Shown one piece after another: positions 28,168 through 38,786 of a DNA stretch of 64,000 nt. The notes beneath the pieces are model-generated. The model saw only the letters and a program-made list of their open reading frames with translations. It had not been told where the DNA came from and made no database searches. A program made the translations under genes and the position numbers. The number at the start of each line of letters is the position of its first letter. Position 1 is the first letter of the stretch. The DNA is from Actinomycetes bacterium (GTDB lineage: Bacteria > Actinomycetota > Thermoleophilia > RBG-16-64-13). The DNA is taken from assembly GCA_024637095.1 (NCBI GenBank), contig JAGXFV010000049.1:1-64000 (forward strand), given 5' to 3'.

Positions 28168-28281
28168 TTCGTCGCCTCCTAGCTCCATCAACATCTCGAG
28201 ACCGCCCCTTTGTCCGGCGGCTCTCAGGGTCCTTCCCCTGTTATGGAAAGAGCGAGTAGATGCCAGGAAGGGAGAAAGCTT

Positions 28282-30276
28282 TTGAGCGAAAAGAAGATGT
28301 TCACCGTGATTTTCCAGCCCTCGGGAAGCCGGGGCAAGGTTGAGGAGGGAACCCCGGTTCTGCAGGCAGGACGGGATCTCGGTGTCGAAATCGAAGCCAT
28401 CTGCGGCGAGAAGCGAACCTGCGGCAAGTGTAAGATCCGTGTCGAAGAAGGCTTTTTCGAGCGCTACGGAATCGAATCCGCGGCGGACCACGTCTCCAAG
28501 TGGCGGCCGGTCGAAGAGAAATTCATCAATGAAAAGCGCCGCGAAGAGGGCTACCGGCTGAGCTGTGTGGCCAAAGTCGACGGCGATCTGGTCATCTTCG
28601 TCCCCGAGGAAAGCCGCTCCGGCGGCCAGGTGGTGCGCAAGGCCGCCACCGACCGTAAGATCGAGGTCAACCCGTCGATTAACACCTACTACGTCGAGTT
28701 GGTCCCCCCCACCCTCCACGATCCGCTGGGCGACTATGAGCGCATGGTCGAGGGACTCAAGGAGCAGCACGGTCTCGAAGAGCGGCCCAGGATCGACTAT
28801 CAGGTGCTGCGTACGTTGCCCGACGTCATCCGCGAGGCTCACTGGAAGGTCTCGGTTGCCATCTGGGACGGTGACGGCTTCCCGGAGATCGTAAAAGTGA
28901 CCCCGGGTAAGGTCGAGCGCAGCCTCGGGCTTGCCGTGGACGTGGGTACTACCACGGTCGCCGCCTACCTTTGTGACCTGCACACGGGTGAGGTGCTGAA
29001 CACCGACTCCATGATGAACCCGCAGGTACCTTACGGCGAAGATGTGATGAGCCGGATCACCTACGCGATGTCCCACCCCGAGGACGGCATCAAGAAGTTG
29101 CAGGACGCCATCATCGAGGGCATCAACACGATCGCGGCCCGGGTTACTGAGGCGGTTGGCTTCACCCATCGCGACATCCTCGAGATGACGATCGTGTTCA
29201 ACACCGCCATGCACCACTGCTTCCTAGGGATCTACCCTGAGCATCTGGGTCTGGCTCCATACGCCCCGGCGTTGCACCATTCGATGAACATCAAGGCGCG
29301 AGATCTCAAGCTGGACTTCGCTCTAGGTGCCAACGTGTTCGTGCTGCCCAACGAAGCCGGCTTCGTTGGCGCGGATAACGTCGGTGTGCTTATCGCCGAA
29401 GCGCCGTACAACCAGGACGAGAAAGTGCTGATCATCGACATCGGCACCAACGGCGAGCTCATCATGGGCAACCGGCAAGAGCTGATCTCCTCGTCCTGCG
29501 CTACGGGTCCCGCGCTCGAAGGCGCGCACATCAAGTACGGGATGCGGGCGGCTCCGGGAGCGATCGAGAGGATCTACATCAATCCGGAGACCAAAGAGCC
29601 GCGCTACAAGGTGATCGGCAAGGAAGAATGGTCCGATCAGATTCCGCAGGGAGAAATCGGCACCAAGGGCATCTGCGGCTCGGGCATCATCGATGCCATC
29701 GCCGAACTCTTCAAGGCCGGCATCATCGACAAGACCGGCAAGTTCGTCAAGGGTATGGACGAGCAGTACGAGCGGATCCGCAGAGGCGACGACGGCATGG
29801 AATACGTGCTGGCCTGGGCCGATGAGACCTCGATCCACCAAGACGTGGTCATCACTATCAAGGACGTCCGTTCGGTACAGCTTGCCAAGGGCGCGCTCTA
29901 CGCCGGCGCCAAGATCATGATGCAGAAGCTCGGGTACGAGTCGCTGGACAAGGTCATTCTGGCCGGCGCCTTCGGTTCGTTCATCGACCGGGAGGAATCC
30001 CTTGTAATCGGGATGTTCCCCGACGTGCCTATCGCCAAAGCCTACGCGGTCGGTAACGCGGCCGGCGACGGTGCCCGGATGGCTCTGCTCGACAAGAGCA
30101 AGCGTGCCGAAGCCGACGAATGGGCCCGCAAGGTCGAATACATCGAGCTCTCGGTGGAGCCGAAGTTCGAGAAGGAATTCATGATGGCGATGCATCTGCC
30201 GCACATGAAGGACAAGTTCGGACACTTGGCGGAAGGTCTGGAAGGCGAAGGCCTCGACGGACTCGTCAAGGCTTAA
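28282..30276 (+). CDS. Reductive activator of corrinoid proteins (RACE)
   Basis: A 664-residue ASKHA-type activator that uses ATP to return inactive cob(II)alamin in corrinoid proteins to cob(I)alamin. An N-terminal [2Fe-2S] ferredoxin-like domain has Cys in ICGEKRTCGKCKIRV and a later LSCVAKVDGDLVIF. The ATPase part carries LAVDVGTTTVAAYLCDL, IDIGTNGELIMG and ILAGAFGSFIDREES. TTG at 28282 is chosen because GGGAG lies 8 nt upstream; ATG 28297 is possible. First gene after the cobalamin riboswitch and 14 nt before the MtrH-like gene. Confidence 0.93.
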   Translation: MSEKKMFTVIFQPSGSRGKVEEGTPVLQAGRDLGVEIEAICGEKRTCGKCKIRVEEGFFERYGIESAADHVSKWRPVEEKFINEKRREEGYRLSCVAKVDGDLVIFVPEESRSGGQVVRKAATDRKIEVNPSINTYYVELVPPTLHDPLGDYERMVEGLKEQHGLEERPRIDYQVLRTLPDVIREAHWKVSVAIWDGDGFPEIVKVTPGKVERSLGLAVDVGTTTVAAYLCDLHTGEVLNTDSMMNPQVPYGEDVMSRITYAMSHPEDGIKKLQDAIIEGINTIAARVTEAVGFTHRDILEMTIVFNTAMHHCFLGIYPEHLGLAPYAPALHHSMNIKARDLKLDFALGANVFVLPNEAGFVGADNVGVLIAEAPYNQDEKVLIIDIGTNGELIMGNRQELISSSCATGPALEGAHIKYGMRAAPGAIERIYINPETKEPRYKVIGKEEWSDQIPQGEIGTKGICGSGIIDAIAELFKAGIIDKTGKFVKGMDEQYERIRRGDDGMEYVLAWADETSIHQDVVITIKDVRSVQLAKGALYAGAKIMMQKLGYESLDKVILAGAFGSFIDREESLVIGMFPDVPIAKAYAVGNAAGDGARMALLDKSKRAEADEWARKVEYIELSVEPKFEKEFMMAMHLPHMKDKFGHLAEGLEGEGLDGLVKA

Positions 30277-30290
30277 GGGGGGTTCAACAA

Positions 30291-31280
30291 ATGGCAGATG
30301 CTACAGGCTCAGGATCCAAGATGTTCAACTTCGACACAGAGCAGAAGGTGTTCGAGATCGCAGGGATCAAGGTGGGCGGGCAGCCGGGGGTCAATCCTCC
30401 CCTGCTCATTCCCTCCATGTTCCAGAAGGGCGATCCGGCCATCGAAAGTCGCCGGCAGCGCAAGTTCAATAAGCAGTTGGCCGGGGACAACATCAAGCGG
30501 ATGGAAGAACTGTCCGAGATGACCGGCATGCCCGCACTGGTGGCGATGGTGGCCAATCAGGGCGAAGAGATGAAGAACTACATCGACTTCTACGTGGAGG
30601 CCACTGATCTTCCTTTCGCTATCGACATGTGGAACCTGGATCCTCGGATGGAGGCCACCAAGTACGTGGCCGAGCAGGGACTGCAGGACCGACTCCTCTA
30701 CAACTCCGTTACGGTGTGGAGCCCGGACGTACCTGCCGAGGTCGAGCTGATCAAGGAACTCGGCGTGAAGCACGTGGTCACAGTGGTCATGGACATGGTC
30801 AACCAGACCCCCAGCGGTCGCCTGAGCTCTCTCGACGATATGTTGGACAAGATGAAGCCCGGTGAGTTCGAGAGCATCCTGGTAGACACCTCGGTCATGA
30901 ACCTGCCGGCCACCGGCATATGTGCCCTGGCCAACCGGTTGGTCAAGGAGAAGTACGGGCTACCCGCCGGTGCAGCATCGGCCAACGGCACTTATATGTG
31001 GCAGAAGTCGACCTACCGGGACAATAGGGAGAAGTGGGGCGAGAACGCATTCGTCGGCCTCGACGCCGGCACGCACGCCGCCTCGGTAGCCCTTTGGGGC
31101 GACTTCATCTTCAGCGGCCCGATGTGGGGCATTGACTCGGTCTTCCCGGCCGTGGCCGCCGCGCACTCGATGGTCAGCCTGATGAACTGGGCGGAGACGG
31201 GTGAACTGACTCAAAACGAGTCGACGCCCCTACACAAGTTGTGGCCGGATTATGTCAAGACACTCAAGGGTGAAGAGTAA
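30291..31280 (+). CDS. MtrH-family methyltransferase (corrinoid to pterin)
   Basis: A 329-residue protein related to tetrahydromethanopterin S-methyltransferase subunit H. It starts MFNFDTEQKVFEIAGIKVGG after a short leader, the family N-terminus, and keeps ELSEMTGMPALVAMVANQGEE and the TIM-barrel pattern. In bacterial corrinoid systems these enzymes move the methyl group from methyl-corrinoid protein to tetrahydrofolate. Spacing to RACE is 14 nt. The pterin acceptor (tetrahydrofolate) is inferred. Confidence 0.88.
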   Translation: MADATGSGSKMFNFDTEQKVFEIAGIKVGGQPGVNPPLLIPSMFQKGDPAIESRRQRKFNKQLAGDNIKRMEELSEMTGMPALVAMVANQGEEMKNYIDFYVEATDLPFAIDMWNLDPRMEATKYVAEQGLQDRLLYNSVTVWSPDVPAEVELIKELGVKHVVTVVMDMVNQTPSGRLSSLDDMLDKMKPGEFESILVDTSVMNLPATGICALANRLVKEKYGLPAGAASANGTYMWQKSTYRDNREKWGENAFVGLDAGTHAASVALWGDFIFSGPMWGIDSVFPAVAAAHSMVSLMNWAETGELTQNESTPLHKLWPDYVKTLKGEE

Positions 31281-31317: not shown

Positions 31318-32361
31318 ATGACTATGACGCACAAGGAACGGGTTCTCAAGACGATCAAAGGGGAGCCGGTCGATAAGATGCCGGCGTTCACCGGGTTCGG
31401 CGCGGTCCTCGTCGAGGGGCTGGAGAAGTACGGTCTGCGCTTTGCCCATGTCCACCTGGACGCGGACGAAATGGCCAAGGCTGCAGCGGCGACGAGCGAG
31501 TTGGCCGGCCTCGAGGCAATCGTGGTGCCGTTCGACATGGGCGTGGAGGCCGAAGCTCTGGGCGCTACGCTCAACACCTACCCGCACTCCGAGGACCTTC
31601 TCTACCCCACGCTGCGCGACAAGTTCGTGCATACGGCGGATGACATCAACCTGCCCGCGGACATCGCGAACGCGGGTCGCGTGCCCCTGGTGACAGAGGC
31701 CATCAAGAAGCTCAAAGAGCAGTACGGCGAAGAATACGCCGTGGCGTCCTGGGTGCTCGGTCCCTTCACCTTGGCCGGCCAGGTGATGGACCTGAACGAA
31801 CTGCTGAAAATGAGCTTCAAGGAGCCGGAAAAGGCTAACGCCATCCTCGACAAGCTGAGCGACATGATCATCGGTGTGGGTAAGGCCTATATCGCCGCCG
31901 GTGCGGACTACCTCTCGCTCCGCGAGATGGGAGCCACCTCCGACGTGCTCTCGCCTCGGGCCTACAAGAAGCAAATCAAGGGCTTCTCGCAACGCATCGT
32001 CGAGGAACTGAAGGCAACGGGCGTGCCCATCGTCTACCATATCTGTGGCGACACCAACATGATCATCGAGGATATGGCGGAACTCGGTGCCGACGCGGTC
32101 TCTGTGGACCAAAAGAACGACCTCAAGGCCAGCCGGGAGAAGCTGGGCGACGAGGTGGTCCTTCTCGGCAACATAAATCCCTGGGATGTTTTCACCCAAG
32201 GGAGCAAGGAAGACGTTCAGCGCGAGGTTAGGGCGTCAGTGGAGGCGGGCGCGGACGCGGTCTGGCCCGGCTGCGACATCTGGCCGACCACTTCGACCGC
32301 GAACATCAAGACCTGGGTGGAAACCAGCCACGAGCTGACACCTCGGCGGAACGGCGCCTAG
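31318..32361 (+). CDS. MtaA/UroD-family corrinoid methyltransferase (Cys form)
   Basis: A 347-residue uroporphyrinogen-decarboxylase-fold methyltransferase. The zinc ligands of the MtaA/MtbA type are present: His and Cys in YHICGD near residue 241, and the C-terminal Cys in WPGCDIWPTTSTANIK near 322. Such enzymes activate a thiol or transfer methyl groups to or from a corrinoid protein. It lies between the MtrH-like gene and the corrinoid protein. It is the internal control for the Sec-containing relative at 34140, where the C-terminal Cys position is TGA. Confidence 0.88.
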   Translation: MTMTHKERVLKTIKGEPVDKMPAFTGFGAVLVEGLEKYGLRFAHVHLDADEMAKAAAATSELAGLEAIVVPFDMGVEAEALGATLNTYPHSEDLLYPTLRDKFVHTADDINLPADIANAGRVPLVTEAIKKLKEQYGEEYAVASWVLGPFTLAGQVMDLNELLKMSFKEPEKANAILDKLSDMIIGVGKAYIAAGADYLSLREMGATSDVLSPRAYKKQIKGFSQRIVEELKATGVPIVYHICGDTNMIIEDMAELGADAVSVDQKNDLKASREKLGDEVVLLGNINPWDVFTQGSKEDVQREVRASVEAGADAVWPGCDIWPTTSTANIKTWVETSHELTPRRNGA

Positions 32362-32433: not shown

Positions 32434-33099
32434 ATGGGATCCGACGAGCGCAAGCAGGAACTTTTCGGCAAGATGAAGGAAGGCGTCATCGAGTACGACG
32501 AAGACCAAGTCGTCGAGGCCGCCAATGCCCTGGTCGACGAAGGCTTCGATGCCTACGAGGGCATCATGGACGGCCTGGCCGCCGGCATGGAAGTCGTCGG
32601 CGAACTGTTTGATAGTCAAGAGTACTTCGTTCCCGAAGTCCTGATGTGCGCCGACGCCCTGTACGCCGGCCTCGATATCCTGCGTCCCAGAGTGGACATG
32701 ACAGGCCGCGAGGCTGTCAAGGGCGAGGTAGTGATCGGTGTGGTCGAGGGCGACGTGCACGACATCGGCAAGAACCTCGTGAAGATGATGTTCGAGGTCG
32801 CCGGCTTCACCGTACACGACCTGGGCGCGGACGTGCCGATCGACGAGTTCGTAGAGAAGCAGATCAACACCAACTCGGACATCGTGGCCTTGTCCGCCAT
32901 GATGACCACCACCATGATGGGTATGAAGAAAGCCATCGTGAAGCTGAAGGAAAAGAACCCGGACGTCATGATCATGCTGGGCGGCGCCCCGGTTACCGGC
33001 GAGATCGCCGACATGTTCGGTGCGGATGGCTACTCCGAGAACGCCTCCAACGCGGTTTCCGAGGCGATCAAGATGGTGGCTGCACTCCGCAAGATGTAG
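32434..33099 (+). CDS. Methyl-accepting corrinoid protein (MtbC/MttC-like)
   Basis: A 221-residue B12-binding protein. The N-terminal helical cap domain spans about residues 1-90. The Rossmann-like cobalamin domain starts KGEVVIGVVEGDVHDIGKNL, with the lower-axial-ligand His in DxHxxG, followed by LSAMMTTTMMGMKKAI and MLGGAPVTGEIADMFGADGY. It shuttles the methyl group between the methyltransferases and is reactivated by RACE. Strong hairpins lie on both sides of the gene. Confidence 0.95.
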   Translation: MGSDERKQELFGKMKEGVIEYDEDQVVEAANALVDEGFDAYEGIMDGLAAGMEVVGELFDSQEYFVPEVLMCADALYAGLDILRPRVDMTGREAVKGEVVIGVVEGDVHDIGKNLVKMMFEVAGFTVHDLGADVPIDEFVEKQINTNSDIVALSAMMTTTMMGMKKAIVKLKEKNPDVMIMLGGAPVTGEIADMFGADGYSENASNAVSEAIKMVAALRKM

Positions 33100-33144: not shown

Positions 33145-33179
33145 GCGAACGGGGGGGCTGTTTAATCAGACACGGGCCT

Positions 33180-33914
33180 TTGGCACTCGTAGACCGTCGG
33201 ACCGGACTGGTCGAGACGATAGAGGAACTCGCACTGGATTGCGGCGTGGATGTCTTGGGCTTTGGGGACGTGAGCGAGGCCCTCCCCCCGGGTTTCGCTC
33301 ATCTTCCCGTTGGAGTCTCGGTCGGAGTGGCCCTCGGGCAGAGCCCTGGTGGCCCTGCCCGTTACGATCACCGCGACGCCCAGATACAGAGCATTCTGGA
33401 TGAGGCCCTTAGGGAGATCGCTGCCTTCCTCCGCTTGCGAGCGTACCGGTATTTCTGCTGTCCCGCCGAGTGCGACCCCATGGAATCACCGTTCACCGCC
33501 CGGATGGCGCATCGGTTCTCTCACAAGGCTGCGGCGACTTGCGCGGGCCTCGGCTGGGTTGGACGCAACGGGCTGTTGATCCACCCCGAGCTCGGTCCCT
33601 ACGTGTCCTGGGCCACGGTTGTCACGAACGCGCCCTTGCCTCTGGGGGACCCGTGGATCGAAGGACAGTGTGGCAGTTGCACGGCCTGTGCCGAGGCCTG
33701 TCCCGCGGGGGCAATCAGCGGGAGGGTTTGGCGGAGGAGCCATGGCATGCGCCGATTGGTTGACGCCGACCGCTGCCGGGGCTCTTTGGACGTTGTGGAA
33801 AGGGAAACGGGCTCTCGCGTCTGCGGTCGGTGCGTAGTTGCCTGTGCGTCCGTCTATCGGGAGAAGAGCGCCGTTGGACGTACGGGCCTTGAGTTAGATT
33901 GGTCTAACCTATAA
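33180..33914 (+). CDS. QueG-like iron-sulfur protein
   Basis: A 244-residue protein similar to epoxyqueuosine reductase. It has the RFSHKAAATCAGLGWVGRNG and LLIHPELGPYVSWATVVTN segments and a ferredoxin-like cluster site CGSCTACAEACPAGAI plus CGRCVVACAS, enough for about two [4Fe-4S] clusters. QueG enzymes bind cobalamin, and QueG-like proteins occur in other corrinoid loci. The start is uncertain: TTG 33180 is the best placed, but no ribosome site is clear. It may donate electrons to corrinoid factors rather than make queuosine. Confidence 0.72.
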   Translation: MALVDRRTGLVETIEELALDCGVDVLGFGDVSEALPPGFAHLPVGVSVGVALGQSPGGPARYDHRDAQIQSILDEALREIAAFLRLRAYRYFCCPAECDPMESPFTARMAHRFSHKAAATCAGLGWVGRNGLLIHPELGPYVSWATVVTNAPLPLGDPWIEGQCGSCTACAEACPAGAISGRVWRRSHGMRRLVDADRCRGSLDVVERETGSRVCGRCVVACASVYREKSAVGRTGLELDWSNL

Positions 33915-34139: not shown

Positions 34140-35225
34140 ATGGGTAAGCAAGCTGTCTTGGATGCATACCAAGGCAAGTACACGCCAGTAGTGCCTTGGG
34201 TGCCGTATGTGGGTGTCCATGCGGGCTATCTGATCGGAGAGCCGGCGGACAAGCTCCTGCAGGACGCCGACCTGCTGGCCAAGGGCGTCCTGAACGCCGC
34301 CGAGCGCTACAATGCCGACGGCATTCCCCTCGCCTTTGACCTCGCCATCGAGGCCATGTCGATGGGTATCGAGGCGAAGTGGTTCCCGGACAATCCGCCG
34401 ACGGTGATCGACCATCCGCTGCAGCATAAGACCATGGCGGAAGCCGATCTGAAGGTGCCGGGCCCGAAAGATGGTCGCTGGCCGTTGATTATCGAGGCCG
34501 GCAAGAAGGTGAAGGAGCAACTCGGGGACCGTGCCCTGATCGGGTTGACCTGTGGTCCTCTGACCCTCGCCTCTCACCTGCGCGGCGCCAAATTCTTCAC
34601 GGACATGGTGAAGAAGCCCGAGTTGGCTGCCGAGATCATGGAGTTCGCGGCTCTCGTGACCAAAGAGTCGGCGCGAATCTACGCGGAAGAAATCGGCTGT
34701 GACATCGTCGCTTTGGTGGAACCCGTGGGTAGCCAGGTGCGCCCGGAGACGTACGACAAGTTCGTGATTCCCGCGTGCCAGCCGGCTCTCGAAACGATTC
34801 ACGCGGCCGACAAGGTCTCCGCCTTGTACATCTGCGGCGACGCCACCAAGATCGTCGAGAACATGATGTACACCGGCGCGCACGCCGTGTGCGTGGACGA
34901 GCAGCTCAACATGAACTACATCCGCGATTGCGCCCTCAAGTATGGTCGCGGTTTCGCCGGCAACCTCAAGCTGACCCTCGCCCTCTCCCTGGGTCTCGTC
35001 GACCCGCGTGAAGACGCTATCGTCAGCTTGGCGGCCGGTGGGAAGATCGGGTTCACCTTCTCCCCTGGCTGAGACATGCCTTACGACGTTCCAGTTGAGA
35101 ACGTGGATAAGGTTCTGGAAGCCAAGACCTGGTACGAGCAGTACTACGCCCATTACCCGAACGTGCCCTACCCGTCGATCGAGCCCAAGAAGACGCCGGC
35201 GGAACCGATCGTGGAGGTGAGCTAG
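34140..35225 (+). CDS. Selenocysteine-containing UroD/MtaA-family methyltransferase
   Basis: Read to the first TGA (35070-35072) this gives 310 residues ending GKIGFTFSPG. Read through the TGA as Sec it continues DMPYDVPVENVDKVLEAKTW and ends at TAG 35223, for 361 residues. SPG-U-D...P.ENV is the family's C-terminal zinc-ligand motif, with Cys replaced by Sec at residue 311; the relative at 31318 has PGCD there. The other ligand region is LYICGD: Cys is kept but the usual His is Tyr. AAGGAGG precedes ATG 34140. It is likely the substrate-facing methyltransferase of the locus; the substrate is unknown. No selenocysteine machinery genes are in the window. Confidence 0.88.
35070..35120 (+). promoter_or_regulatory. 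Sec TGA codon and candidate SECIS of the UroD-family gene
   Basis: TGA 35070-35072 is followed by AGAAC (35098-35102) pairing with GTTCT (35112-35116) around GTGGATAAG. The loop begins with G, 30 nt after the codon, inside the range used for bacterial SECIS models. A competing stem ACGTT/AACGT (35086/35100) exists. This is the weakest of the five SECIS candidates; the protein-level evidence is stronger. Confidence 0.5.
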
Positions 35226-35573
35226 TTGGCTGAAAACGACAAGATTGTTGTTGAAGTCCTGACACTAGACTCTCTGCAGTGACCGGCGTGCGGGTACATG
35301 GTCGATGTACTTAATTCACTGTCGCCGGAAGTCAAGGACATAATCGATTACAAAGAGTGGTCCATCAAGAACGCCGAAGGTATCGGCATGTTCATGGAAC
35401 GCAAAGGCCGCGTCCTGCCCACTCTTTGCATCGGGGAACAGCTCTGCTACGAGAGCGTCATCCCCACGATCGACGAGCTCTACGAGACGTTGATCGACAA
35501 CGCCAAGAGCGAAGAGCAGAAGACGATTCTCAAGACCTCGTACGACGAGTTCCTGGAGGAGTACAACAAGTAG
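35226..35573 (+). CDS. Thioredoxin-like selenoprotein 1 (UPAC motif)
   Basis: A 115-residue protein starting at TTG 35226, directly after the TAG of the previous gene, with GGAGGTGA five nt upstream. In-frame TGA at 35280 gives VVEVLTLDSLQ-U-PACGYMV, a UxxC redox site after the first beta strand, followed by LPTLCIGEQLCYESVIPT with the cis-Pro position of the thioredoxin fold. Without read-through only a start-less downstream fragment from 35298 remains. A textbook SECIS follows the TGA. Likely a thiol/selenol reductant or metal(loid)-handling protein for the neighbouring enzymes. Confidence 0.88.
35280..35310 (+). promoter_or_regulatory. Sec TGA codon and SECIS of thioredoxin-like selenoprotein 1
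   Basis: TGA 35280-35282 is followed by GTACAT (35294-35299), loop GGTCG (35300-35304) and ATGTAC (35305-35310), a perfect 6-bp stem. The loop starts 18 nt after the codon. Both loop sequence and spacing closely resemble the E. coli fdhF SECIS, whose loop is GGUCU. Confidence 0.88.
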
Positions 35574-35660: not shown

Positions 35661-35774
35661 ATGCAGGACATCCTGATCGAAGTATTGACCCTCGACTCCA
35701 AGCAATGACCATGTTGCTGGTACTTGGTCGATGTACTCGAGTTCAACGAGCGGCGCATACCGATGAGCAGTTGA
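35661..35774 (+). CDS. Thioredoxin-like selenoprotein 2 (UPCC motif), short or degenerate
   Basis: ATG 35661 has GGGAGG just upstream. Reading TGA 35706-35708 as Sec gives MQDILIEVLTLDSKQ-U-PCCWYLVDVLEFNE, closely parallel to the first 30 residues of the copy at 35226. The frame then stops at TGA 35772 after 37 residues. In the +2 frame a protein-like tail (RAAHTDEQLTVREGARQHVL) runs to TGA 35822-35824, which overlaps the ATG of the next gene. A frameshift in a full-length ancestor would join them. Alternatives: a real short selenopeptide, a programmed frameshift, or a second Sec. The SECIS is conserved. Confidence 0.6.
35706..35736 (+). promoter_or_regulatory. Sec TGA codon and SECIS of thioredoxin-like selenoprotein 2
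   Basis: TGA 35706-35708, then GTACTT (35720-35725), loop GGTCG (35726-35730) and ATGTAC (35731-35736). The stem has one T-T mismatch. Loop sequence and the 17-nt gap to the codon are identical to the copy at 35280. Confidence 0.78.
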
Positions 35775-35823: not shown

Positions 35824-36390
35824 ATGGCGGTTCGGCGCGTAGCGCTGCACGCCTGCGGGGGAATTACCCGCCCCGGCTCCACGGTCGCGCGGCTGGCGGT
35901 CTATTACGTCGCCGAGGAGTTGCTCCCCGAGAAGGCGCTGGTTTCCTGCGCTCCCGCCTTTCTCCGCGGAGTCGAGGAAGACGTTCTCATGGTGCAGAAG
36001 AGCCCCTCCATCGCCCTCGACGGTTGCGAATGGAGTTGCGGCACGAATCTGCTCTATCTGGCCGGCATCATCCCGGCCGCCCGCATCCTCATACCCGAAT
36101 ACGCGGAGGCTTGCGGGTACGATTTGACCCAGGTGAATCTGCGCTTCCCCACGGGAGTGGGCCGCGATCTGGCGTGGGCAGTCGCGGAGAGGATAGCCGC
36201 GATCGGCAGGGGTATGCTCGAACGGGGGAGCGACTATCGCTTCGAGCGGCCGGGGATCGTCCGCCGCCAGGGGGAGTGGTTCCGTCCGGCGCCCAATATG
36301 GAGGGGGCCTTGGAGTTCGTTCGTCTGGAGCCGGGAGTCTACCGGCCCGTGGGGATGCCGCCTCTTCCCGAAGAGTCAAGGGAGGCCTGA
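35824..36390 (+). CDS. DGC-domain putative metal-binding protein 1
   Basis: A 188-residue protein with the DGC-type putative zinc-binding pattern: an early ALHACGGITRPGSTVARLA, a Cys at LVSCAPAF, and ALDGCEWSCGTNLL near residue 65, plus Cys in EACGYDL. Its ATG overlaps the TGA of the preceding frame (tgATG). It is paralogous to the next gene. DGC proteins are of unknown function but have conserved cysteines suited to metal or thiol chemistry; context suggests handling of a metal(loid) or selenol intermediate. Confidence 0.78.
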   Translation: MAVRRVALHACGGITRPGSTVARLAVYYVAEELLPEKALVSCAPAFLRGVEEDVLMVQKSPSIALDGCEWSCGTNLLYLAGIIPAARILIPEYAEACGYDLTQVNLRFPTGVGRDLAWAVAERIAAIGRGMLERGSDYRFERPGIVRRQGEWFRPAPNMEGALEFVRLEPGVYRPVGMPPLPEESREA

Positions 36391-36395
36391 GCGCT

Positions 36396-37013
36396 GTGGT
36401 GGAGAAGGTCACTGTCTTTCCGTGTGGCGGAATCGGGGACCCGGTTTCCTCGGTGACCCGGCTGGCCGGTTATCTGCTGGCCGAGGATCTGCTGCCGGGC
36501 CGGGTGGAGTTGGTATCCATACCGCCGGTAGTAACCGGCGTCCCCGACGAACTGCGGTTGGTGCAGGAGTATCCGGTGATCGTTCTCGACGGCTGCTCGC
36601 ACCGGTGCGGGTCGAACGCGCTCAACCTGGTTGGGATTCGCCCCGCGGCGCGACTGCTGACTCCGCGCATTCGCAGCCAGACGAAGCACGCGGTCGGCCG
36701 ACGCCGTCCGTATCCGGAGACCTCGGGTCAAAAGCTGGCCAAGGCCCTGGCGGAGAAGGCCGCGGCTGTGGCTCTCGGTATGCTCGAGGATGAGTCCTAC
36801 GCCTTCGAGACTCAGCGGGTGAGCCCAAACCCCGAAGGGTTGATCGACGACACCTTCGACATCGAACGGGGCCTTGGCTATGAGGAAGTGCAGGTCGGCT
36901 GCTTCCATTGCAGCGGCATGTGCGCGTTCAAGCTCAAGGACGATCCGGAGTTGCGGCGCAGGTTGGAAGAAGAGGTCGCGGAGTTCGAGCGCCTGGAGGA
37001 TATCGAATGCTAG
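36396..37013 (+). CDS. DGC-domain putative metal-binding protein 2
   Basis: A 205-residue paralogue of the preceding gene: VFPCGGIGDPVSSVTRLAGY, LDGCSHRCGSNALNLVG, and an additional C-terminal VGCFHCSGMCAFKL cysteine cluster absent from the first copy. GTG 36396 (or 36399) follows GGGAGG. The last 7 nt overlap the following selenoprotein gene, so translation is coupled. Function unknown; the extra CxxCxxxC suggests a second metal or Fe-S site. Confidence 0.78.
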   Translation: MVEKVTVFPCGGIGDPVSSVTRLAGYLLAEDLLPGRVELVSIPPVVTGVPDELRLVQEYPVIVLDGCSHRCGSNALNLVGIRPAARLLTPRIRSQTKHAVGRRRPYPETSGQKLAKALAEKAAAVALGMLEDESYAFETQRVSPNPEGLIDDTFDIERGLGYEEVQVGCFHCSGMCAFKLKDDPELRRRLEEEVAEFERLEDIEC

Positions 37014-37243
37014 ACGAAGGTCCCCAAGGCCCTTTCAAACTACGGCTGATGGGTTGAGTGACCTGCGGGCCGGCCGTGCGCCGGGTTCTCGAGGATTCGC
37101 TCGAGGTCGAGTTGGTCGAGATGGTCTGGGAGGAGCACTGGGCCGACGTCCGTTTTGCCTCGCCGGAGTTCGGCGTGGAGGAATTGCGGATGCGGCTCGT
37201 GCCCGCGGGCGCCTGGTGCGGCCCCTGGCCGGAAGAGGCCTAA
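37007..37243 (+). CDS. Small selenoprotein with UVTC motif
   Basis: A 78-residue protein. ATG 37007 lies inside the end of the DGC gene with GGAGG at 8-9 nt. In-frame TGA 37055-37057 read as Sec gives FKLRLMG-U-VTCGPAVRRVLED, a UxxC site at the start of a helix as in redox-active folds, then ends with RLVPAGAWCGPWPEEA. Codon use around the TGA is continuous. A SECIS-like stem follows at the same spacing as in the thioredoxin-like genes. I do not recognise the family beyond this. Confidence 0.78.
37055..37084 (+). promoter_or_regulatory. Sec TGA codon and SECIS of the UVTC protein
   Basis: TGA 37055-37057 is followed by CCGGC (37070-37074), loop CGTGC (37075-37079) and GCCGG (37080-37084). 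The loop begins 18 nt after the codon, exactly as in the 35280 and 35706 elements. G is the second loop base. Confidence 0.68.
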
Positions 37244-37272: not shown

Positions 37273-37569
37273 ATGCTGACGGTCCAGGTTATTTCCGAGG
37301 GCGGGCACTGCGTTCCCTGAATCATGGCGATCGAGGCCACCAGGGAGGTGGCTGCGGAATTCGGCCAGGCGGCCGTGAAGGTGGAGGTGGTCACCCTCAA
37401 GGAAGCCGAGGGAGCCGCGCGCTACCGTGAGCTTCGGCGCCAGGCCGGCGAACACCTGCCGGTTCCCAGCGTGCTGGTGGAGGGGGCTCTGGCCTTTTCC
37501 GCCATCCCCGAGCCGGATGAGTTGCGTGAGGTTTTCCAGCGGGCGCTCTTCAAGCAAGGCGGCGACTAG
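37273..37569 (+). CDS. Thioredoxin-like selenoprotein 3 (CVPU motif)
   Basis: A 98-residue protein from ATG 37273. In-frame TGA 37318-37320 read as Sec gives TVQVISEGGHCVP-U-IMAIEA, a CxxU site after beta strand 1 and before a helix. Later HLPVPSVLVEGALAFSAIPE has the cis-Pro strand of a thioredoxin fold. Only a downstream fragment is visible if the TGA is taken as stop. The end overlaps the GTG of the next gene by one base (TAGTG). The reversed order (CxxU against UxxC in the other copies) suggests a distinct redox role. Confidence 0.85.
37318..37352 (+). promoter_or_regulatory. Sec TGA codon and SECIS of the CVPU protein
   Basis: TGA 37318-37320, then GCCACC (37336-37341), loop AGGGA (37342-37346) and GGTGGC (37347-37352), a perfect 6-bp stem. 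The loop starts 22 nt after the codon and has G at position two. Confidence 0.72.
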
Positions 37570-38786
37570 TGCTCTACCTCGAAGGCTTCTACGGGCAGCG
37601 CGTGCGTGTGCCTGAGGACCGCCGCTACGATCCTGAGCGCGAACTCTGGCTGCTCGAGGGGGACGGCCGGGTGGTTCTGGGACTCACCCACGCAGGCGTT
37701 GTGTTGTCCGGGGGAATCGAGGACCTCATGCTCGAGGCGGAGGTCGGCCAGGACATCACTGTTGGCGAGCGACTGCTATCGGTCGAAGCGTACAAGGCAG
37801 CCCAGGAAATCACGTCACCGCTGGCCGGACGTCTGGTGGCGGTGAACCGGGAAGTACTGGACAACCCGGAATTGCTGGACGAAGATCCTTATGGAGTCGG
37901 CTGGCTTATGGAATTGAAGCCGAAGCCCGTGAGCGGCGCCACACTGGCCGGATTTCCCACCGCGAACGACTATCTGCGCGCGCTGGAGTCCTCCTGCGCG
38001 GCGACTGACGAGGGGGGCGTCACCGGGGAGTCGGATCTGGGAAACGCCTCGGGGGCTGGGGTCGAGAGCGTGGCCGGCGCTTCGCCCAAGGACGGCCTGT
38101 GCGCCGAGGTCAAACGTGCCACAGTCGCGGACTGCAGCGTCCCTGTTGCTCTCGCTCGCCTGGCTCCGGGAATGAAGGTGATCAATCTGGGGGCACGGGC
38201 CGGGGAAGACGCCGTACTCACCGGCGCGCGGGTAGGCCCGGAAGGGCGCGTCCTGGGAATCGTCCCGACCGACTCCATGCTCGAACGGGATCGGTTGGCG
38301 GCGACGGACGCCGGGCTCGAGAACGTGGAGTTTCGGTCGGGGGAGATCGAGCAGATCCCCGTAGTGGACGGGTGGGCGGATATGGTTATCGCCGGTTGCG
38401 CTGTTAACCTCTCGGCGCGTAAGGACCGGGCATTCGCCGAGGTCTTCCGGGTTCTCGGAGATGGCGGTCTGCTGGCGATCTCTGACATGGTTGTCATCAA
38501 ACCGCTTCCCCCTTTTCTCTCGCGAAATCGTGCGGCCCGCTCCAGTCTCTTAGCACACGCCGTCTCCTTGGAAAAGTATCTGGCGCTCATCGAGCGGGCG
38601 GGATTCATGCGCCCCAAGGTCGAGCAGCTCATCGAGTATTCGAGCGAGCAGTTGGAGACCCTGATGGGCATGGACCTGCGGTCCTTGGAATCGGAGGGCC
38701 GAATGGCAAAGGAGGACCTGGCGCTACTCGAGGGGCGTGTGGCGAGCGCCCACATTTTGGCGCTCAAGGTTCGCTGCAACTGCTAG
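37569..38786 (+). CDS. GcvH-like lipoyl domain fused to ArsM-like methyltransferase
   Basis: A 405-residue two-domain protein. Residues ~1-125 resemble glycine-cleavage H protein, with a candidate lipoyl Lys76 in SVEAYKAAQEITSPLAGRLV and the NPELLDEDPYGVGWL motif. After a linker, residues ~175-400 resemble arsenite methyltransferase: LAPGMKVINLGARAGEDAVL, VEFRSGEIEQIPVVDGWADM, IAGCAVNLSARKDRAFAEVF. The acidic SAM-ribose residue after motif I is replaced (GIVPTDSML), so catalytic competence is uncertain. The chain ends CNC. GTG 37569 overlaps the previous stop, and its stop shares CTAG with convergent rlmN. It may present a dithiol arm to a metal(loid) methyl intermediate. Confidence 0.82.
   Translation: MLYLEGFYGQRVRVPEDRRYDPERELWLLEGDGRVVLGLTHAGVVLSGGIEDLMLEAEVGQDITVGERLLSVEAYKAAQEITSPLAGRLVAVNREVLDNPELLDEDPYGVGWLMELKPKPVSGATLAGFPTANDYLRALESSCAATDEGGVTGESDLGNASGAGVESVAGASPKDGLCAEVKRATVADCSVPVALARLAPGMKVINLGARAGEDAVLTGARVGPEGRVLGIVPTDSMLERDRLAATDAGLENVEFRSGEIEQIPVVDGWADMVIAGCAVNLSARKDRAFAEVFRVLGDGGLLAISDMVVIKPLPPFLSRNRAARSSLLAHAVSLEKYLALIERAGFMRPKVEQLIEYSSEQLETLMGMDLRSLESEGRMAKEDLALLEGRVASAHILALKVRCNC

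Follow-up and report, generated by a model that had tools for sequence, protein, structure and literature searches.

Background

A paralogue of the glycine cleavage H-protein (GcvH) which serves another pathway is LbpA, of sHdr sulfur oxidation. It has conserved cysteines near its N- and C-termini which are absent from GcvH, and carriers of this type refuse the canonical lipoylation enzymes and need a ligase of their own (PMC6067878). Selenoprotein operons of the SAO and Tso types have also been described (Haft and Gwadz 2023; Haft and Tolstoy 2025), as cited in the selenoproteome review PMC13188914. Here we study a probable lipoyl carrier tied to an operon for corrinoid methyl transfer that is rich in selenoproteins; no such combination was found in the literature searched. 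It lies in a stretch of 64,000 nt (the window) from an Actinomycetes bacterium, and six syntenic loci are available for tests. Plain coordinates refer to the window, and the genes of the operon lie on its forward strand.

A fusion gene restricted to one genus

The gene at 37569-38786 codes for a protein of 405 aa in which a GcvH-like lipoyl domain is followed by a degenerate ArsM-like methyltransferase. An earlier note on this DNA had proposed this fusion, and both its extent and its domain reading are right, as judged by profile matches, shuffles and an orthologue. Its GTG start and the stop of the selenoprotein gene before it overlap (TAGTG). None of 300 dinucleotide shuffles of the region gave an open frame of more than 312 codons, against the 405 of the real gene. 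The orthologue comes from G017 (MAG Soudan_30), another species of this genus; it also has 405 aa, with an intact frame and 75% identity. The fusion is thus real, and it is lineage-specific: these two species of a single genus, both uncultured actinobacteria, are the only ones that have it. Within the family, four more genomes have a stand-alone GcvH-like protein of 193-205 aa at this position. No protein spanning both halves appeared outside the genus in 18 genomes of the family, 299 of the class and 396 of the phylum; the class and phylum samples were drawn evenly with few candidates scored per genome, and rare fusions may be missed. A scan of genome contigs with two short patterns did not find the fusion in other lineages either. 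It was also not found in plasmids, nor was the carrier domain found in viral contigs.

The carrier domain and the selenoprotein set co-occur exactly, in 6 of about 298 genomes of the class, with the same gene order in the six loci. This is the co-occurrence to which the earlier note had looked. Far from being found only outside selenoprotein loci, the fusion closes an operon in which genes for corrinoid methyl transfer stand together with four genes that contain TGA codons. This conserved operon includes the carrier domain as an integral component.

The operon

The operon starts with a RACo-type reductive activator of corrinoid protein (28279-30276; PF14574, 1e-95). It is followed by an MtrH/MtgA-like methyl-tetrahydrofolate:corrinoid methyltransferase (30300-31280; NF002142, over the cut-off), by an MtaA-type methyltransferase whose zinc-ligand motif is the ordinary HxC...C (31318-32361; TIGR01463, over the cut-off; 4ay7) and by a corrinoid protein of the methyltransferase type (32434-33099; TIGR02370, 3e-61). 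A QueG-like protein with two [4Fe-4S] clusters (33177-33914, start not fixed) is present in all six loci. The rest of the operon, which closes with the fusion, encodes an MtaA/URO-D paralogue, two DGC-domain proteins, two thioredoxin-like proteins and a small protein of HMA/MerP-like type. DGC protein 1 (35824-36390; PF08859, 3e-9) occurs in six of six loci; DGC protein 2 (36396-37013; PF08859, 1e-10) is found together with the carrier domain in these six genomes and in no other of the approximately 298 sampled.

Elsewhere in this genome (G000) a region on contig C24, at about 66.8-73.3 kb (L081:6771-13337), contains URO-D, VWA and MoxR-AAA genes among others; their relatives directly adjoin the selenoprotein cluster in two of the genomes (G006 and G007). 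A search for HgcA, of mercury methylation, gave only a match below the cut-off, in the Wood-Ljungdahl cluster on contig C15, and we have rejected it as a true HgcA. Proteins of the HgcA type over the NF040863 cut-off are found in two relatives (L085 in G007, L086 in G011).

Four genes with in-frame TGA codons

Each of the six genomes keeps four in-frame TGA codons, flanked on either side by similar protein sequence, in the motifs SPGUDMP, QUPAC, GUVTCG and HC[VL]PU. Short-loop hairpins lie downstream of the four codons. As the hairpins do not all have unusual folding energies, the conservation of TGA is the stronger evidence for selenocysteine. SelA and SelB are encoded in the genome.

The gene at 34140-35225 belongs to the MtaA/URO-D family (TIGR01463, 7e-35). 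Its TGA (35070-35072, SPGUDMP) aligns to the third zinc-ligand Cys of MtaA (LAPGCGIAP in 4ay7), and the ligand motif HICG reads YICG, with the His ligand replaced by Tyr. In MtaA these residues bind zinc. As judged from the sequence, the product is probably a selenocysteine methyltransferase. A selenocysteine at this position is directly testable and, if real, would mean that selenium is used in methyl transfer in an unusual way. The 2026 selenoproteome review (PMC13188914) yielded no entry for uroporphyrinogen or URO-D. This MtaA-like selenocysteine protein is a more striking lead than the fusion, and the little-known set of genes with four selenium-containing proteins is the more surprising part of the locus.

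The other three proteins are smaller. The thioredoxin-like selenoprotein at 35226-35573 has its TGA at 35280-35282 (QUPAC; NF047660, 8e-7). A truncated second copy of the start of this first thioredoxin-like protein (LDSKQUPCCWYLVDV) lies at 35661-35765; it has decayed differently in G017. The small HMA/MerP-like selenoprotein at 37007-37243 has the UVTC motif (GUVTCG, TGA 37055-37057). Its best NF041115 match is 1.9e-4, with five of the six members matching, and the MerP structure 1afi is found at 0.016. Just upstream of the fusion there is a second thioredoxin-like selenoprotein (37273-37569; HCVPU, TGA 37318-37320), which matches NF047660 (HUIPC) at 1e-26 with 92.9 bits, below the cut-off of 105; by this match it appears as a close relative of the HUIPC family.

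The probable lipoyl carrier half

Residues 1-122 (37569-37934) form the GcvH-like domain, with a Pfam GCV_H match (9e-19) at residues 19-122. Both the H-protein fold and the lipoyl lysine are present: the predicted model of this half matches the Thermus H-protein 1onl in Foldseek (E 3e-11, TM 0.79 of the target). A structure prediction of the whole fusion from the six-row alignment has a mean pLDDT of 42 and is usable for this half only. The predicted lipoylation site is Lys76 (37794-37796, SVEAYKAAQ), and the lipoylation-type context seen in the earlier note is borne out by its alignment with the lipoyl lysine of 1onl. Lys76 is invariant in the six orthologues, as are many H-protein residues; conservation was one of the points on which the earlier note had staked its reading. 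The outcomes for Lys76 and for the selenoprotein locus favour that note, but they do not test its organometal claim. The half is below the curated cut-offs, with 68.8 bits against the 115.85 of the TIGR00527 equivalog and 98 bits against the 150 of NF045810 ("GcvH-related protein").

The stand-alone orthologues end in a conserved tail with two cysteines (EHCA...SPTCR.VYGGIRGNEPGEGS). The fusion protein has no Cys in residues 1-142; its first one, Cys143, is near the position of the two-Cys tail and is followed by an unconserved linker. This linker (residues 123-183, 37935-38117) is near neutral and replaces the tail.

Lipoylation of Lys76 is plausible, since LipA, LipB and a dihydrolipoyl dehydrogenase are encoded in the genome. 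The genes for LipA and the dehydrogenase are found inside a Wood-Ljungdahl cluster (MTHFR, AcsC, AcsB, CODH) on contig C15 (L080:7436-9719, minus strand), and LipB, found with PF21948, is on C36. A PF03099 match was considered as a lipoate ligase and rejected, as it reads as BirA. Among the family matches of the operon proteins no dedicated lipoate ligase for the carrier was seen. LipB may not accept such a divergent carrier, given that LbpA proteins need their own ligase (PMC6067878).

A second GcvH-like domain occurs in this genome fused to an ArsR-type HTH domain (L030:8449-9330, minus strand; contig C9, about 28.4-29.3 kb). By reading, it adjoins DsrE-like and NrfD-like genes, and a related match is present in G017 (C8).

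The methyltransferase half

The ArsM-like domain (residues 184-405, 38118-38783) has a Methyltransf_31 match of 3e-18 and matches the NCBIfam ArsM profile PRK11873 at residues 188-400 (2e-49), with 168.5 bits, below the cut-off of 263. It aligns with CrArsM and CmArsM. Its motifs were compared with those of the ordinary ArsM of the genome itself, which is separate and intact (on contig C2, beside an ArsR gene), and with ArsMs from other sources. SAM motif I (GxGxG, ordinarily GSGAG) is broken in both species: it reads GARAG in this genome (residues 208-212) and GGRVW in G017. The acidic SAM contact is also gone in both, with GVDMT changed to GIVPT (IVPT at about residues 231-234). The earlier note had remarked on the loss of the acidic ribose contact, which is real, and the damage extends to motif I. 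A degenerate motif I alone is no proof of lost SAM binding. The structure model of the domain has a pTM of 0.63 and is poor at the SAM site. Going by these motifs, this half has most likely lost its activity as a SAM enzyme.

Two of the three arsenic-binding cysteines have equivalents. Cys189 (38133-38135, GCGNP) corresponds to CmArsM Cys72 and Cys277 (38397-38399, SNC) to Cys174; the latter is the "Cys before NLS" in which the earlier note had rightly recognised a resemblance to ArsM. The third, CmArsM Cys224, is lost in both species, with Leu327 (38547-38549) in its place. We take the assignment of the arsenic-binding cysteines from the titles of the mutant entries 5eg5 (C72A) and 5jx7 (C224A) and from the general background on ArsM. 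At the C-terminus Cys403-Asn-Cys405 (38775-38783) aligns with the C-terminal Cys cluster of ArsM. The Cys-rich N-terminal arm of ArsM is absent, and the lipoyl domain occupies its place. This arrangement is suggestive, but in a domain without a SAM site it does not count as evidence for methylation.

Selection and origin of the fusion

Only two fusion sequences exist, and all dN/dS values come from this one pair (G000 and G017). The value is 0.17 for the lipoyl part, 0.94 for the linker (CI 0.49-1.98), 0.34 for the methyltransferase core (bootstrap CI 0.21-0.54, with no bootstrap reaching 1) and 0.47 for its tail. The ordinary ArsM has 0.088 and the neighbouring genes 0.05-0.09. The methyltransferase half thus has about four times the dN/dS of the ordinary ArsM of the genome, yet stays below 1: it is relaxed but not free of selection, which argues that it still matters somehow.

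In a tree the two fused ArsM-like domains form one long branch of unsure position. One of the four genomes with a stand-alone carrier (G010) has an ArsM remnant (VIISNGVVNLSPEKDRVFAE) directly behind the carrier gene and on the same (minus) strand; it is 35 residues long (VTRVIISNGVVNLSPEKDRVFAEEIVSLKVQPSCS; L025:8955-9059) and has an hmmsearch E of 3e-7 among 4,854 translated stretches. Given this remnant, an ArsM-like gene was probably present behind the carrier in an ancestor common to at least two genera; one lineage would then have joined it to the carrier, while in the second it would have decayed.

Interpretation

The reading which we prefer, with a probability of about 0.55, is that the gene product is a lipoyl dithiol carrier dedicated to the selenoprotein/corrinoid methyl-transfer operon, and that the ArsM-like tail attached to it in one genus is SAM-dead. 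Lys76 would be octanoylated and then converted to lipoyl-lysine by the LipB and LipA of the cell. The swinging dithiol could act as a relay of electrons, or of methyl or sulfur, with the two thioredoxin-like and the MtaA-like selenoproteins encoded just upstream. The ArsM-like methyltransferase, once behind the carrier gene, would have been joined to it in one genus. Its SAM site appears to have been lost before the split of the two species, which would mean no more SAM methylation. Moderate selection may have preserved it as a tail that has a structural role or supplies cysteines (Cys189, Cys277, Cys403/405).

The methyltransferase half might instead be a decaying relic of a separate ArsM-like gene, with no function of its own, so that only the lipoyl domain matters. 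The stand-alone carriers in four genomes, the decayed stub in G010, the fast evolution of this half and its neutral linker agree with such a relic. The 405-aa frame is nevertheless intact in both species with no change in length, five of six cysteines are kept, and a dN/dS of 0.34 with no bootstrap at 1 or above speaks against decay; we consider this explanation possible, though clearly the less probable one. That the protein is simply the H-protein of glycine cleavage with an irrelevant C-terminal extension is the least probable explanation of all. It has the GCV_H domain and fold, but its score falls short of the gcvH equivalog cut-off, a canonical GcvH of 135 aa is encoded elsewhere (L031), and the gene shares both its location and its genomes of occurrence with the selenoprotein set.

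The earlier note had pointed to an organometal hypothesis. In full, this would be an active organometal(loid) methyltransferase in which the lipoyl dithiol takes the place of the N-terminal Cys arm of ArsM, binds an ion such as As(III) or Hg(II) and passes it to the methyltransferase fold. Much of what the note built on stands: the fusion, Lys76 in six of six orthologues, the selenoprotein co-occurrence and the presence of LipA and LipB. The position of the lipoyl domain, where ArsM has its Cys-rich N-terminus, the retained equivalents of Cys72 and Cys174 and the HMA/MerP-like selenoprotein of the operon also speak for it. What finds no support is a working enzyme with dithiol and SAM. The claim is weakened by the motif losses, as both species have lost SAM motif I, SAM motif II and the third Cys, and by the occurrence of the operon without the fusion, which is confined to one genus. 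An ordinary ArsM is present elsewhere in the genome, which has no true HgcA. Such an activity thus seems unlikely, and any organometal link rests on the neighbours (the HMA/MerP-like selenoprotein), not on the fusion. Since the methyltransferase half looks catalytically dead from its motifs, caution is due in reading the fusion as an arsenic enzyme. A more speculative variant, to which we give even less credence, is that the SAM-less ArsM fold is handed either a methyl group or an ion of a soft metal(loid) by the corrinoid/selenocysteine methyltransferase of the operon, with the lipoyl dithiol as carrier. If true, there would be a relay from cobalamin to selenium to dithiol through a SAM-less ArsM fold.

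Comparison with known systems

The dedicated carrier that we propose shares with GcvH (1onl) and NF045810 the lipoyl fold, the E-x-x-K-A context of the lysine with a following SPxxG, and the motif D-P-Y-G-x-x-W. It differs by its scores below the curated cut-offs, by its different operon and by a fused C-terminus or a Cys-containing tail. Like LbpA (PMC6067878), it is a GcvH paralogue for a pathway unrelated to glycine and has a Cys close to the C-terminal end of its carrier domain. However, it has no N-terminal Cys, the operon has no family match to hdr-like genes or to an LplA-type ligase, and LipB is on another contig.

The other half is homologous to ArsM (PRK11873; 4fr0, 5evj) over about 215 aa and keeps the equivalents of Cys72 and Cys174 and the C-terminal CxC. 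In contrast with ArsM, it lacks GxGxG, the acidic SAM contact, the equivalent of Cys224 and the N-terminal Cys arm.

At the level of the operon, the mec cassette of dichloromethane (PMC9768040) also brings together a corrinoid protein, MTII and several URO-D/MtaA-type proteins; its gene list has no selenoproteins, DGC proteins or lipoyl carrier. The SAO/Tso operons, as far as the account in PMC13188914 goes, resemble the present one by having several selenoproteins per operon and relatives of the HUIPC-type thioredoxin-like proteins. No operon protein has a family match to SaoB, SaoT, SaoL, SaoP or SaoX, and TsoX is matched only at E 0.035. With respect to the SAO/Tso operons as they are outlined in that review, the operon described here has two further elements, its corrinoid methyltransferase module and its DGC proteins.
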